Part shown: positions 8,218 to 13,934 of the stretch, piece by piece
Layout of the letters: each line of letters opens with the position of its first letter
Position numbering within the stretch: position 1 is the stretch's first letter
IMG/VR virus record: IMGVR_UViG_3300044858_006201
Location: 1-25,888 of that record
Length of the DNA: 25,888 nucleotides
Strand: one strand, 5' to 3'
Source of the DNA: a virus
The notes under the pieces: generated by a model
What the model was told of the DNA's origin: nothing
Databases searched by the model: none
Seen by the model: only the letters and a program-made list of their open reading frames with translations
Translations under genes and position numbers: made by a program

Positions 8218-9114
8218 TCAGACCTGGAGCACCGACACGACGGTGCCAGCGCGCACGGCGGTCGGGTCGGTGAAGCTGTTGGCCGATAGAATGGGCTGCA
8301 CCTGCGAGGCGTCGCCGTAGACGGCCAGCGCGATCTCCCACACCGCCATCGCGCGCGGGCAGGTGTAGCGCGAGCGCGTCTGCGGCGATGGCACGAGGGC
8401 CCCGCGGAGCGCGAGGATCGACGCGCGCAGGTTCAGTGTCGCGACGAAGGCGTCACGCGAGGAGAACGCTGCGAGCGACGGGAGCGCGAGGTTCACGGCC
8501 ACCGGCGCCAGCATCTGTCGGATCGCGCCGTCGACCTGCGAGGCCTTGCGCGGCGCGCCGTCGAGGTACGCCTGCTGCGCGTCGATCGTGGCCTTCGTCG
8601 GCTGGTAGCCCACGAGCGGCGCGCCTGCGGCGTCGGCCTGGGTGGCGAGCAGCGGGAGTGCTGCGCTCGCGTTCGTCGGCTGGCCCGCGGGGTTGCCGTC
8701 CGCGAAGAGGAGCGCCGCCGTGGCGTTGTGCTCGATCACCTCGACGCGCAGCCGCACGCCACCGCGGTCCTCGGCGGCGGTCGTGTGGGTGATGCCCCCG
8801 ATGCCCGCGGTGAGGTTGCCGAAGGTCGGCAGCGTGAGGACCGCGATGGGCTTCGCGGTGAAGCGGTCGACGAGGTCGAACGCGAGGTCGGGGAAGAGCA
8901 GCCCGTACCGCTGCACGAGCTGCGGCGTGTTGATGAGCGGGATGGTCAACGTGCCGCGCCAGGGCTTGCGCCCCGTCGGCTGCAGGTCGGCCGCGGGGCG
9001 GCGGAACGCGAGGAACTCTGCGAGGTCGTTGCCCCCCGTCATCTCGACGTCCTGCACGGGGAACGAGAGCCCGTCGTAGGAGGCCTCTTGGAGCGTCGAG
9101 AGGGCGTCGGTCAT
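8218..9114 (-). CDS. Mu gp43-like tail protein with C-terminal LysM-like segment
   Basis: A 298-residue protein. The N-terminal 130 residues resemble the 'DNA circularisation' domain of Mu gp43, a tail/baseplate protein despite its name: LQEASYDGLSFPVQDVEM, then F-R-R-P-A-A-D-L-Q-P-T-G-R-K-P-W-R-G-T-L-T-I-P-L, then strands. The last 49 residues (about 250-298: Y-T-C-P-R-A-M-x-x-W-E-I-A-L-A-V-Y-G-D, ending A-G-T-V-V-S-V-L-Q-V) look like a LysM/tail protein X module, which in P2-like phages is a separate small protein. The whole protein is shorter than Mu gp43. It overlaps the tape-measure stop by ATGA and precedes the hub gene, which agrees with a baseplate-proximal role. Confidence 0.75.
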   Translation of the reverse strand: MTDALSTLQEASYDGLSFPVQDVEMTGGNDLAEFLAFRRPAADLQPTGRKPWRGTLTIPLINTPQLVQRYGLLFPDLAFDLVDRFTAKPIAVLTLPTFGNLTAGIGGITHTTAAEDRGGVRLRVEVIEHNATAALLFADGNPAGQPTNASAALPLLATQADAAGAPLVGYQPTKATIDAQQAYLDGAPRKASQVDGAIRQMLAPVAVNLALPSLAAFSSRDAFVATLNLRASILALRGALVPSPQTRSRYTCPRAMAVWEIALAVYGDASQVQPILSANSFTDPTAVRAGTVVSVLQV

Positions 9115-11252
9115 CGCGGGGGAGCTCCTGCGGCGCGCGCGTGCATCATGACGTGCATGGGCACCTCGACGTTGACCGGCGCGCTGCTCATGCCGTCACG
9201 CACAGCCTGCGAAACCGACGTGACGAGGCCGGTGTAGAAGTCGGCCGTGAAGGGGTTCGTGTACGCCGCCTGCCCGCTCGCTTCGGTCGCGCGCCCGCCC
9301 GGCCCCATCGCCGACCGATCGCTGTAGACCGCCCGGTTGATGAGTGCGCCAGCGCCGCCGCCGACGAGCGCCGCCGCTCCACCTGCGGCCGCGATGGTGC
9401 CCGCGCTCGCGGCGGCGACGGTCCCGCCGAGCGTCGCGAGGAGCCCAGCCGCAGTGCCACCGCCGCCGAGCATCGCCGGGAGCGCAGCGCCCACGACGGT
9501 GTTCTTGAGCGCGTTCGTCGCGAGGGTGCCCCCGATGCCCGCCGCGACGTTGCCCGCGGCCCCTGCGGCCGCCGACTCGAGCGGGTTGCGCGTCTGCCAG
9601 TCGTGGATCGCGTCGGAGAGGTTCTTGAGATTCGAGGTGTTGTCGGTGAGCGCGTTGTCCCGCGCCTCTTGCGCGCGGGCGAGCTGCGACATGGAGTCGC
9701 TCTCGACGTCGCGACGGTGCTCCGCGATCTGCGTATCGGTGACGCCGCCGCCACCCATCATCTCTGTGACGCGCCCGCCCTCGGTGCCGAGGAACGCGAT
9801 GAGCCCGCGCATGTTCGCGAGCAGCGCCTGCGGGTTCCCGGGGCCGCTGCCCGCGAGGATGTTCGCGCCGGCCGACGCGTTGCCGCCCGTCGCCTGCGTG
9901 AGGCGCGCGGCGAACTCGAGCGGCGAGAAGCCCTCGCGCATCCGCATCGCGCCGCCCGTGCGCGTGGGGTCTGCCTCGAACATCGCCTCGCGCAGGTCGC
10001 GGAACGACCGCGCGCGCGCCGCGCCTTCGGGCGTCGCGGTGTTCACCTGGCGCTCGGCGGTCAGGATGTTCTGGTGGATCATCTCCTGACGCCGCGGCGT
10101 CGAGAGAAAGTTGTTGAGCGACGCGAGCGTGTTCGCGGTGTTGCCCGCCTGACGGCCCGTCGAGGCGCCCACCTCTTGGAGCGCGACGGACTCCTGATAG
10201 GCCTGGAGCCGCGCCGCCTGCTGCCGCGCGGCGGTCGCGTTGGGTCCGAGCGAGGCCGACCGCTGCGTCATCAGCGAGACGGCGCCGGGGAGCCCCTGCT
10301 GAATGATCTGGTCGACCTCGACGGAGCCGCGCTGCGCCGCGCGCATCGTGTAGCGCATCGCCGTCTTGAGCGCGTCGCCCGAGAGCCCCGCCTGCCCGAG
10401 TCGGCCTTGCGCGGCGAGGTACTGCCCCGGGTCGATGCCCTCGGCGTTGGCGTCGCGGATCGACTCCAGCGCACGGCCGAGCGCCTGCCCGCGTGTCTCG
10501 CCCGCACCGGCCTCGAGCGCGGAGCCGCGCCCCTGCCCGATCTCCAGCGCGCCCGCCACGTCCTCGTAGCGCATGCCCGTCTCGGTGACGAACGAGCGCA
10601 CACGGTCGCGCGCTGCGGCGACGTCGGTACGAGACCCGCCCGCGTTGCGCACGGCGTTGCCGAGCGTGCGCTCGCCCGATGCGCGGCGCTCGCGCGCGTC
10701 CTGAAACTGCCCGTGCATCGCGACGGCGCTGCCCATCACCGCGCGCGTCGCGTTGGCCGCGCCCGATGCGACGCTGCCGCCGAACTCGCGGGCCCTGCGC
10801 GTGGCGTTCGCCATCCGCTGCCGCGCCTCGCGGTCTTCGGCGCGCGTACGCTTCGCGCTCTCGCGCTCGGCAGCCTGCGTGCGCTGCCGGTCGGCGCGCC
10901 CGGCCTCGCGGGCGAGGCGGTCGGCTTCCGTCTTGCGCTCGCGCGTCTCCTCGCGCTCCTGGCGAAGGCGCTTCTGCGCCTCCTGCTTCGACGTGCTGGT
11001 GCGCTCGCGCTCAGCTTGCTTCGCGGCGCTCGTGCTCTCGCGTTCGAGGCGCCGACGCTCGCGGGAGGCTTCGGCCGCCGCACGCTGCGAGGCCCTCGCC
11101 TCGTCGCGGGCGATGCGCTCGCGCTCCCGCTCGGCGCGCCGCGCCTCGGCCGTGACCCCCGCCTGCGACGATCGCGCGGCCCCCCGCAGGTCGCCGAGCG
11201 CGCTACGCGCGGGCGACGTGTCGGCGTCGATGAGGAGGACTGCGCGGGACAT
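9111..11252 (-). CDS. Tail tape measure protein
   Basis: A 713-residue protein that sets tail length. Residues about 30-160 are an extremely charged Arg/Glu/Ala-rich coiled coil. The middle is helical with Gln/Asn/Ala content. Residues about 560-645 contain several hydrophobic Gly/Ala segments (for example VVGAALPAMLGGGGTAAGLL and TIAAAGGAAALVGGGAGALI), which in tape measures are thought to insert in the host membrane. The C-terminus is short and polar. The chosen ATG at 11252 overlaps the stop of the -1 frameshifted chaperone product (TGATG). No good Shine-Dalgarno sequence lies upstream, so translation may depend on that coupling. The open frame extends upstream, but only inside the chaperone gene. 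Confidence 0.9.
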   Translation of the reverse strand: MSRAVLLIDADTSPARSALGDLRGAARSSQAGVTAEARRAERERERIARDEARASQRAAAEASRERRRLERESTSAAKQAERERTSTSKQEAQKRLRQEREETRERKTEADRLAREAGRADRQRTQAAERESAKRTRAEDREARQRMANATRRAREFGGSVASGAANATRAVMGSAVAMHGQFQDARERRASGERTLGNAVRNAGGSRTDVAAARDRVRSFVTETGMRYEDVAGALEIGQGRGSALEAGAGETRGQALGRALESIRDANAEGIDPGQYLAAQGRLGQAGLSGDALKTAMRYTMRAAQRGSVEVDQIIQQGLPGAVSLMTQRSASLGPNATAARQQAARLQAYQESVALQEVGASTGRQAGNTANTLASLNNFLSTPRRQEMIHQNILTAERQVNTATPEGAARARSFRDLREAMFEADPTRTGGAMRMREGFSPLEFAARLTQATGGNASAGANILAGSGPGNPQALLANMRGLIAFLGTEGGRVTEMMGGGGVTDTQIAEHRRDVESDSMSQLARAQEARDNALTDNTSNLKNLSDAIHDWQTRNPLESAAAGAAGNVAAGIGGTLATNALKNTVVGAALPAMLGGGGTAAGLLATLGGTVAAASAGTIAAAGGAAALVGGGAGALINRAVYSDRSAMGPGGRATEASGQAAYTNPFTADFYTGLVTSVSQAVRDGMSSAPVNVEVPMHVMMHARAAGAPPR

Positions 11253-11940
11253 CAGGGTGCTTTCGGTTCGGGGTCGAGGCCGAAGCTGGCCGCTACGTCT
11301 CGTCCGCGTCGCTCGAGGGCGACGTAGCCGAGGAGAGTGAGCTCGTCTGCGCTCTCTGCCGTACCGCCTGTGCGCGCGCGATGGAGCGCAGCGTAGCGGC
11401 ATCGAAGCCACTCAACGCGGAGAGCGGCATCGTCGCTTTTCCCAGCGCGTCAACGATCGCGTCCACCTCCTCCGCCGTCTTCGACTGAAGCGGCGACCGC
11501 TCGTTCGTCCAGTCGACGAAGAGCTCGAAGAGGGCGGCGATCTCGTTGCTCTCGAGGAGCGTGCGCGCCTCGTCGGCGTCGGCCTCGCCCTTCGCGTTCG
11601 CGCACACCGGCGTGTGCCCCGCGGGCTCGACCAGCGCGAGCGCGATCGTGCGGAGCTTGACCTCGAAGTCGAGCATCGCCCGCCCCGCGTCGCTGTAGCC
11701 GACCGCGTCTTCGGAGAGACGGAGGCGCTGCACGAGGTAGGCGTGCGCCTCGGCGCGCACCCGCAGGTCTTCGCCTGCGGTGAGTGTGCGGAGCGCGAGC
11801 GGCACGCCGTCGAGGCGCCCGCCGCAGCCTGCGAAGTCGATCGCCTTCACCGCGCCGACGCCCGAGGCCGAAGCCCCGAGCGCCCTGCGGAGCGCCGATC
11901 GACCATCGCGGGTGATGAAATCGTCGAGCTCGCCGCTCAC
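11252..11940 (-). CDS. Tail assembly chaperone, long form made by -1 frameshift
   Basis: Predicted second product of the chaperone gene. Ribosomes slip back one base on G GGA AAA (11443-11437, codons 167-168) and then read 61 further residues, starting S-D-D-A-A-L-R-V-E-W and ending G-L-D-P-E-P-K-A-P, to a TGA at 11254-11252. The total is about 229 residues. The -1 frame is open for the whole 183 bases despite strong alternative coding, its peptide looks protein-like (E-S-A-D-E-L-T-L-L-G-Y-V-A-L-E), and its TGA overlaps the tape-measure ATG as TGATG. This is the lambda gpG/gpGT arrangement, in which the long form contacts the tape measure. Seen: heptamer, frame and overlap. Inferred: actual slippage. 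Confidence 0.75.
11293..11940 (-). CDS. Tail assembly chaperone, short form
   Basis: A 215-residue protein between the tube and tape-measure genes, where contractile and long-tailed phages encode the chaperone that coats the tape measure during tail assembly (Mu gp41, lambda gpG). The GTG start lies in a GTGA overlap with the tube gene. The protein is mainly helical and acidic. Around residues 48-110 it has L-A-L-R-T-L-T-A-G-E-D-L-R-V-R-A-E-A, resembling chaperones and P2 gpE-like proteins that begin with a strand followed by helices. The zero-frame C-terminus is a Ser/Asp-rich tail ending SSDADET. Assignment rests on position, size and the frameshift signal more than on sequence similarity. 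Confidence 0.75.
   Translation of the reverse strand: MSGELDDFITRDGRSALRRALGASASGVGAVKAIDFAGCGGRLDGVPLALRTLTAGEDLRVRAEAHAYLVQRLRLSEDAVGYSDAGRAMLDFEVKLRTIALALVEPAGHTPVCANAKGEADADEARTLLESNEIAALFELFVDWTNERSPLQSKTAEEVDAIVDALGKATMPLSALSGFDAATLRSIARAQAVRQRAQTSSLSSATSPSSDADET
11437..11443 (-). promoter_or_regulatory. -1 ribosomal slippery heptamer GGGAAAA
   Basis: The minus-strand sequence is CTG GGA AAA GCG in the chaperone frame, so the heptamer is G GGA AAA, fitting the X XXY YYZ rule exactly. It is close to the lambda G/GT site GGGAAAG. It lies about 140 bases before the zero-frame stop, in the usual place near the end of the short form. I did not fold the downstream RNA for a stimulatory structure. 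Confidence 0.75.
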
Positions 11941-12308
11941 GAGACCGTCGAGTCGATGGAGCCGTGGAACTCGAAGGTGACCTCGTTGGCCTTGTCGACC
12001 GACGAGCTGATCTTCACGTTCCGCACGTCACCGCGCATCAGGTAGGTCGTGCCTGCGAGCTTGAAGGCCAGAGGCACCTCGAGCTGCGCGTTCGCGATGG
12101 CCACCCAATTGTACTCGAGCCCGTTCTGCGGGATCGCGCTGTTGACGTTGACCTGCACCTTCCTCGGCCCGGGGCTATGGCCCGAGCGTCCGAGGAGCTG
12201 CGTGTTGACGTCTTTGTTGTCGGTCTGCACGTCGAAGTCGATCGACGACGACTGAAGGATCGGAATGCCGTCGTAGAGCGCGAAGCCGGGGCCGCTGTAT
12301 GCCGCCAT
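11937..12308 (-). CDS. Tail tube protein (Mu gpM-like)
   Basis: A 123-residue tube subunit, the inner tail conduit for DNA. The sequence starts MAAYSGPGFALYDG and holds the motif series S-S-I-D-F-D-V-Q-T-D-N-K-D-V-N-T, then L-L-G-R-S-G-H-S-P-G-P-R-K-V-Q-V-N-V-N-S-A-I-P, then strands with GTTYLMRGDVRNVKIS and VTFEFHGSIDS. This is the pattern of the Mu gpM family, in which strand pairs build the six-fold ring. Length is normal. A strong ribosome site, GAGGAG 8 bases before the ATG, fits its need for high expression. It follows the sheath gene by 21 bases and overlaps the chaperone start. Confidence 0.85.
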   Translation of the reverse strand: MAAYSGPGFALYDGIPILQSSSIDFDVQTDNKDVNTQLLGRSGHSPGPRKVQVNVNSAIPQNGLEYNWVAIANAQLEVPLAFKLAGTTYLMRGDVRNVKISSSVDKANEVTFEFHGSIDSTVS

Positions 12309-12329: not shown

Positions 12330-13934
12330 TCAGAGCTGGCGGACGTTGCCCGCGACGATGTCGAGGCCGGGGATGACCGCGGCGGGGATCTCGCAGTCGA
12401 GGCGCGACGAGTTCGTCGCGTTGATCTCGACGATGAGCAGCGGCAGGTTGGCCGCGACGTTGATCAGGATGCCCGCGGCTTCCATCGTCGCGAGCTGCTG
12501 CGCGAGGAAGCCCCGCACGATCGAGGGCGTCACCACGCGCGGGATGCGCGGCGGGAGGCCGTCGGCGGTGTCGGGTGCGAGCTTGCACGCGCGGTAGGCG
12601 GTGCGGAGCGCGGCGCGGAGCGTGTCGGCGACGTAGTCGGGCACCGTGACGTTCTGCGTGCCGAGCACGGCGTAGTTGGGCACGCCGCCCGACGTCGAGC
12701 GCGTCGTGATGCTCTTCACGACCTCGACGAAGCCGGGCCGCGAGGTCGACGGCGCGAGCACCGTGAGGCCGTTGTTCAGTGCGTTCTCGATCTCCGTCGA
12801 GGTCGGCTGATCGGCGACCGCGCGCTGCGCCAGGATCGTCGCGAGGCCCACGCCGTTGAGGTTCGCCGCGGGGTCGGAGGTCTCGCCGGGGATGTCGCCG
12901 CCGATGGCGCCGTCGCCTGCGAGGCGCGCGGCCGCGACCTGCGAGGCCACGTCGGGCGCGGGGATCACGCTCGCGTGGTGCCACGCGGTCTGCACGCGCG
13001 ACGCGTTGAGCCCCGTCGCGAAGGTCACCCCGTTGCCGTAGATGTCGACGCTCGGAACGATACCCTGCTGGAGCTTCTGCACGGTTGGGCCAGCCTGCGT
13101 CGAGAGCGCCGTCGAGATGCGCCCGGCGTTCGTCGCGTCGATGCACGCGCCGACGATGCGGTCGTAACGCGCGGGCTCGATGGCCGCGAGCGCGTTCGCG
13201 AAAGAATCCTGCGTCGCGCCGTTCGTGAGCACGATCTCGCTGCCGAGGGTGCTCGTGCTCGACCAGATGCCCGTCGTCGCGAAGCCCGATGCCGTCGAGC
13301 TCGTGGTGATGCGGGTCTCGACGGCCGCGCCCGACGCGATGAAGTACGCGTCCACGACGAGGGTTGAGCCGCGAGGGCCCGTCTGCTTCGCGGTGAGCGT
13401 CACCGCACCGACGCTGTTCTGCGCGGTGTAGGGGAGCGAACTGATGTTGTTGATGTACGTGCAGACCGTCGAGGCGATGACGGTGGCCGTGTCGCCCGAC
13501 GCCACGGGGACGTCGATGACCTCGCCGCAGAGGCGCAGCCGCACGGTGCCCGCCGCGTTCGCGGTCGTCGCGAAGGTGAGCACGCCGCTCGCGGCGGTGC
13601 CGCCGGCGTCGGCCACGGGGCACGCGTAGAGGAGCCCGTTGGGGTACTGCGCGAAGAACGCAATGACCATCCGGTGCAGCTCAGAGCCCGCGCCGAAGAG
13701 CGTCGCGGCGTCGCTCGCGCTCGCGACCACGACGGGCGTCGCGACGGCGGCGGTGCCCGCGGCGACGGAGAGCGCGGGGGACGCGCCGGTGATCGCGGTG
13801 CCGATCATGTTGCCGAGCAGCATGGCCGAGAGCGCGACGGCGCCCGCGCTCGTACCGGGGCCGCCGAGCACGACGTTGAAGAACACGCCCGGCGTCTTGC
13901 GGGACGCGGGCACTCCGGGCACAGGGATCGTCAC
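12330..13934 (-). CDS. Contractile tail sheath protein (Mu gpL-like)
   Basis: A 534-residue sheath subunit that forms the contractile outer tail. The N-terminus T-I-P-V-P-G-V-P-A-S-R-K-T-P-G-V-F-F-N-V is typical of Mu-like sheaths ('PG.y.ev'). The middle contains variable beta-rich outer domains (Thr/Ala/Val-rich, about 60-320). The C-terminal part has P-P-R-I-P-R-V-V-T-P-S-I-V-R-G-F-L, then a helix L-A-Q-Q-L-A-T-M-E-A-A-G-I, and ends V-I-P-G-L-D-I-V-A-G-N-V-R-Q-L. That is the conserved handshake region made of strands extended to neighbouring subunits. Start is GTG in a GTGA overlap with the DUF2635 gene. Slightly longer than Mu gpL. Confidence 0.9.
   Translation of the reverse strand: MTIPVPGVPASRKTPGVFFNVVLGGPGTSAGAVALSAMLLGNMIGTAITGASPALSVAAGTAAVATPVVVASASDAATLFGAGSELHRMVIAFFAQYPNGLLYACPVADAGGTAASGVLTFATTANAAGTVRLRLCGEVIDVPVASGDTATVIASTVCTYINNISSLPYTAQNSVGAVTLTAKQTGPRGSTLVVDAYFIASGAAVETRITTSSTASGFATTGIWSSTSTLGSEIVLTNGATQDSFANALAAIEPARYDRIVGACIDATNAGRISTALSTQAGPTVQKLQQGIVPSVDIYGNGVTFATGLNASRVQTAWHHASVIPAPDVASQVAAARLAGDGAIGGDIPGETSDPAANLNGVGLATILAQRAVADQPTSTEIENALNNGLTVLAPSTSRPGFVEVVKSITTRSTSGGVPNYAVLGTQNVTVPDYVADTLRAALRTAYRACKLAPDTADGLPPRIPRVVTPSIVRGFLAQQLATMEAAGILINVAANLPLLIVEINATNSSRLDCEIPAAVIPGLDIVAGNVRQL

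Follow-up and report, generated by a model that had tools for sequence, protein, structure and literature searches.

Evidence for a programmed -1 frameshift with a long dual-coded overlap in the tail assembly chaperone gene of an uncultured contractile-tail phage

Does the gene between the tail tube and the putative tape measure of this phage specify one tail assembly chaperone or two, the second made by ribosomes that slip into the -1 frame, and what would the -1 frame then be for? The locus lies in a window of 25,888 bases (72% GC), the whole stretch of DNA that was analysed, which belongs to virus record IMGVR_UViG_3300044858_006201. The tail module is found on the minus strand and runs from sheath to tube, chaperone gene, a gene for a 713-aa protein and two baseplate-hub genes. 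The sheath gene (12330-13934; phrog_165, E 3.1e-71), which marks the tail as contractile, and the tube gene (11937-12308; phrog_185, E 0.00045) are both named by PHROGs. The 713-aa gene (9111-11252) has the position, length and composition of a tape measure gene; profile searches with PHROG and Pfam gave no match to it, so the name is taken from position only. The N-terminus of this putative tape measure (M.RAVL.I..DTS) is well conserved in many relatives.

The chaperone gene (11293-11940, minus strand) is an open reading frame that starts with GTG at 11940, ends with TAG at 11295-11293 and specifies a zero-frame product of 215 aa, considered G-like from its position after sheath and tube and from its predicted fold. 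Family profiles (PHROG, Pfam) returned nothing useful for the chaperone, the fused product or the -1 peptides, and neither the zero-frame nor the fused product matched the tail-chaperone families of PHROG. An AlphaFold2 model of the zero-frame protein, built from 17 aligned sequences (mean pLDDT 73.8), was matched by VIA-align to the HK97 tail assembly chaperone 2OB9 (Z 9.7, rmsd 3.0, 102 of 107 residues), and the next structural matches were YqbN (3KLU, Z 7.3) and 5IR0 (Z 5.2), then one at 3.4. The likeness to HK97 is in the predicted fold of the N-terminal domain, whereas sequence identity is 17% and the model of the window protein has extra helices C-terminal of the matched domain. Foldseek alone gave no row with a good E-value for this model, so the identification as a chaperone draws on the second aligner and on gene order.

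Within this gene, GGGAAAA at 11443-11437 (minus strand) is read as CTG GGA AAA GCG, so that the heptamer G_GGA_AAA is in phase, and the -1 frame stays open for 61 codons past the slip (63 counted from the heptamer) to a TGA at 11254-11252 that overlaps the putative tape measure ATG at 11252. The zero-frame stop lies 41 nt upstream of the -1 stop, and the predicted slip product has 229 aa (168 + 61), against 215 aa unslipped. The original prediction had claimed an in-phase G GGA AAA, an open -1 frame of 61 codons ending in a TGA over the tape measure ATG, a zero-frame stop 41 bases earlier and a predicted product of about 229 residues, and all of these are borne out. The -1 ORF of the window, of which the extension occupies 11252-11443 (minus strand), has a stop two codons before the heptamer and is devoid of ATG, GTG and TTG throughout, so slipping is the plausible way into it. 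GGGAAAA occurs once in the window, both strands counted. Since 21 of 100 dinucleotide shuffles of the window contain at least one GGGAAAA, and long open -1 frames are common at 72% GC (at least 63 codons at 78% of the 4,415 codon positions of ten window genes), neither the heptamer nor the open frame alone is evidence of frameshifting; their conservation is.

Relatives were gathered via the chaperone itself (2 loci) and via the sheath, where the best 80 of 107 matches were kept, corresponding to 79 loci. Nine of the 79, in which the sheath match stopped short, were left out, and 70 loci were examined downstream of the sheath together with the window, as a close set of 50 sources at or above 49% sheath identity (the window and 49 loci) and a distant set of 21 loci (29-38%). 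A source was called positive if it carried an in-phase GGGAAAA with open flanking frames. This was the case for 43 of the 50 close sources (from the best 80 of 107 matches), and the remaining seven run out of sequence, with less than 1 kb left; six of them end before the usual position of the site. In L012 the heptamer is present and the sequence ends 82 nt past the heptamer start. Conservation in related phages had been proposed as a check on the original prediction, and it came out in its favour both for the heptamer and for the -1 peptide, of which 18 aligned members are conserved. The slip site consists of GGA AAA codons in 36 of 36 distinct contexts, a number from which exact duplicates only were removed; many loci are near-identical, so counts of this kind are non-independent. 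For comparison, seven stretches of window genes contain GGA as 6 of 252 Gly codons and AAA as 2 of 50 Lys codons. The 48 carriers (489 kb, both strands counted) have 52 copies of GGGAAAA, of which 48 are the slip site.

Codons -6 to -2 before the heptamer are nearly fixed as GAG GTA GCT GAY GCG, which is found in 19 of the 36 distinct contexts (e.g., L009, L030, L034, L038 and L045) and, with its rare Ala codon GCT (5.3%), is possibly a nucleotide-level signal. Among the 21 distant loci (sheath identity 29-38%), five have GGGAAAA, nine have other heptamers and seven have none by the criteria used; L065, L068, L078 and L084 gave no candidate heptamer despite ample sequence. Some other distant loci carry CCCTTTN or TTTTTTN. 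Three distant relatives, L068 (+494 to +1716 past the sheath end), L070 (+424 to +1621) and L077 (+592 to +1949), apparently have two tandem chaperone-like genes between tube and tape measure, and those of L068 and L070 have a common PRP...FPRK/N motif. No relative was found by tblastn among 50,697 phage records or by a sheath-profile scan of genome contigs, and a capsid-based scan found two distant loci that were left out of the analysis.

The conserved -1 peptides, 18 of which were aligned, gave a confident model of three helices (mean pLDDT 89.9), and the extension is regarded here as a T-like domain. No match to it was found in BFVD, Pfam or a second PDB comparison (5 chains only), a result that does not show a new fold. 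The DNA that specifies both this domain and the C-terminal tail of the zero-frame product (11296-11436, minus strand) is long, with 148 nt from heptamer to zero-frame stop in the window and as many as 214 nt in relatives close in sheath identity. Within the overlap, change at the fourfold sites read in the -1 frame was 0.23, 0.11, 0.02 and 0.14 in clades A-D (loci of equal overlap length only, and five of the eight clade B loci); the corresponding values were 0.40, 0.25, 0.11 and 0.30 for the upstream gene and, for the tape measure, 0.36, 0.37, 0.14 and 0.23. Zero-frame fourfold sites in the overlap were also low (0.22, 0.11, 0.03 and 0.06), and the substitutions of clade D follow the -1 frame most strongly. 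Conserved residues of the -1 frame are specified by rare codons dictated by the zero frame: Arg is CGA in 32 of 35 (background 4.5%), Ala is GCT in 33 of 34 (background 5.3%) and Leu is CTA or CTT in 33 of 34 (background 6%).

Judged by these sequence comparisons, both frames of the overlap look constrained, and constraint may also act at the RNA level. A more specific reading, to which we give a little less than an even chance, is that the same 140-210 nt carry two alternative, selected C-termini of near-equal length, one a Ser/Thr-rich tail in the zero frame and the other a helical T-like domain in the -1 frame. If this were true, the unslipped tail would itself have a function in tail assembly, and not only the presence of T but also the ratio of the two dual-coded tails would be tuned, unlike systems with a zero-frame stop shortly after the slip. 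The overlap provides a natural test case for two frames under simultaneous selection.

We are highly confident that the chaperone gene of this contractile-tail phage has a programmed -1 ribosomal frameshift of the lambda G/GT and P2 E/E' type. Taken as a conserved programme, the frameshift is all but certain; the claim is strongly supported because the heptamer, the -1 peptide and the rare codons are all conserved. Most ribosomes would produce the 215-aa G-like protein. A minority, with tRNA-Gly and tRNA-Lys on G_GGA_AAA, would slip one base back to GGG AAA by tandem slippage (P-site GGA to GGG, A-site AAA to AAA) and go on to produce a 229-aa GT-like protein, the last 61 residues of which would form the conserved helical domain. 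By analogy with lambda, for which the model is outlined in PMC5009743, the common N-terminal part may coat the tape measure and the -1 domain may recruit tail-tube subunits. We infer that slippage occurs, and likewise its rate and the roles of both products.

Two candidate stimulators of the slip were considered and rejected. RNA folding downstream of the heptamer, another check proposed with the original prediction, revealed no conserved structure: the fold z score is -1.0 in the window and, for 22 representatives, mostly scatters about zero apart from a few low scores (e.g., L053, -3.8), and a consensus fold of 14 aligned sequences has an energy of -2.09 kcal/mol and shows no covariation, with both sides changed in 0 of 10 pairs. 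A downstream stimulatory structure was rejected as a family-wide feature on the scattered z scores and this lack of covariation. Strong matches to a Shine-Dalgarno (SD)-like sequence occur 12 or 21 nt upstream of the heptamer in many loci. These matches coincide with conserved codons for Glu and Val, and for 16 of 17 loci (5% level) the stretch is no stronger than in a codon-shuffled null that preserves the amino acids, the exception being L030; a role as an upstream stimulator was rejected.

Other origins of the -1 product can be weighed on the same evidence. The -1 ORF might be a gene in its own right, overlapping the chaperone gene and starting within it, and many relatives do have an in-frame ATG at -1 codon 31. 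A start at that codon would, however, drop half of the conserved -1 domain, the -1 ORFs of the window and of L004 have no ATG, GTG or TTG, and the heptamer at the upstream edge of the ORF is conserved at the nucleotide level, all of which make a separate gene very improbable. Transcriptional slippage on the A run, yielding the -1 product in place of ribosomal slippage, would find a run of four A within GGGAAAA, but four A is short for polymerase slippage, and the other half of the tandem slip motif, GGA, is just as invariant (36 of 36); we consider it no more probable than a separate gene. Least credible of all is chance, by which an unbroken -1 frame in a GC-rich genome would coincide with an incidental heptamer. 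The figures for the window taken by itself would allow it (open -1 frames of this length at 78% of codon positions, GGGAAAA in 21 of 100 shuffles), yet 43 of 50 close sources have the heptamer in phase and the rest are cut short, the rare codons are fixed and the -1 peptide is conserved.

A programmed slip could also serve mainly to regulate the tape measure, if only slipped ribosomes reinitiated there and slippage frequency set its output. The window itself suggests such an arrangement, with a -1 stop that overlaps the ATG as TGATG, a zero-frame stop 41 nt upstream and a tape measure gene almost without an SD sequence. The lack of a good ribosome site, as originally claimed, is real (best anti-SD energy at the putative tape measure start, +0.1 kcal/mol), though weak sites are common among 15 window starts (capsid, -0.5; chaperone, -1.6; gene 19938, +0.4). 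TGATG had been reported at four ordinary gene borders, of which three were recovered between long ORFs (19940, 16102 and 15121), and the motif occurs 25 times on the minus strand of the window. Across the family, the junction with the tape measure is variable. TGATG, with the -1 stop overlapping the tape measure start, is present in 1 of 36 distinct junctions, that of the window, while in 9 of 36 (L033, L039, L041, L042, L043, L045, L048, L049 and L050) it is the zero-frame stop that overlaps the start, as TAATG or TAGTG; the denominator includes L047, L053, L060 and L071, where the start was not found or doubtful, and leaves out L055 and L061, which ended early. The zero-frame stop comes before the -1 stop in 30 of 46 untruncated loci and after it in 16, and in many junctions without either overlap the two stops are 8 nt apart. 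Moreover, coupling alone needs no conserved, confidently modelled -1 peptide. Coupling to the tape measure by slipped ribosomes alone, as originally claimed, is therefore not supported across the family, and regulation of the tape measure as the main purpose of the slip is improbable, if less so than the three explanations above; slip-dependent coupling in the window phage itself is possible. The most fitting reading of the junction is tight packing where the dual-coded region ends, and this corrects a tempting inference, as overlap with the next start codon does not prove slip-dependent coupling.

The programmed frameshift widens the range of a classic recoding device to include uncultured, GC-rich phages with contractile tails, the chaperones of which were recognised by none of the PHROG profiles, and it suggests a rule for their annotation: a gene after the tube, an in-phase G_GGA_AAA, and 'LGK' followed by a switch of frame. 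A literature search on tail chaperone frameshifting, in general terms only, found no description of the phage family of the window. Among known systems, the slip heptamer of lambda, GGGAAAG, is close to the GGGAAAA of the window phage. As in lambda G/GT, described in PMC5009743, a chaperone gene in the tail module would give a G-like product and, by a -1 slip, a rarer extension. The window phage differs from lambda in its contractile tail, its long overlap and the near-equal size of its products (215 vs 229 aa). A contractile tail is shared with P2 and its E/E+E' pair, for which PMC3931495 gives the slippery site as T6G and has E' reaching only 37 nt back into E. Compared with these 37 nt, the distance from heptamer to zero-frame stop is 148 nt in the window and as much as 214 nt in close relatives. 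The actinobacteriophages Bush and TM4 have the identical heptamer, GGGAAAA, and the tail of TM4 is non-contractile. In Bush, a siphovirus by the title of PMC11749239, that paper documents GGGAAAA as the slippery site of the tail-gene frameshift and states the -1 direction, and the site in the TM4 tail-gene frameshift is cited in PMC4626039. The tail of the window phage, unlike these non-contractile tails, is contractile. Its slip-to-stop distance of 148 nt is also far longer than in the PRFect training set, for which PMC10885494 gives 26 nt as the mean distance between slip and in-frame stop. The device is thus a known one, that of lambda G/GT and P2 E/E', and the long dual-coded overlap is a notable variation on it.
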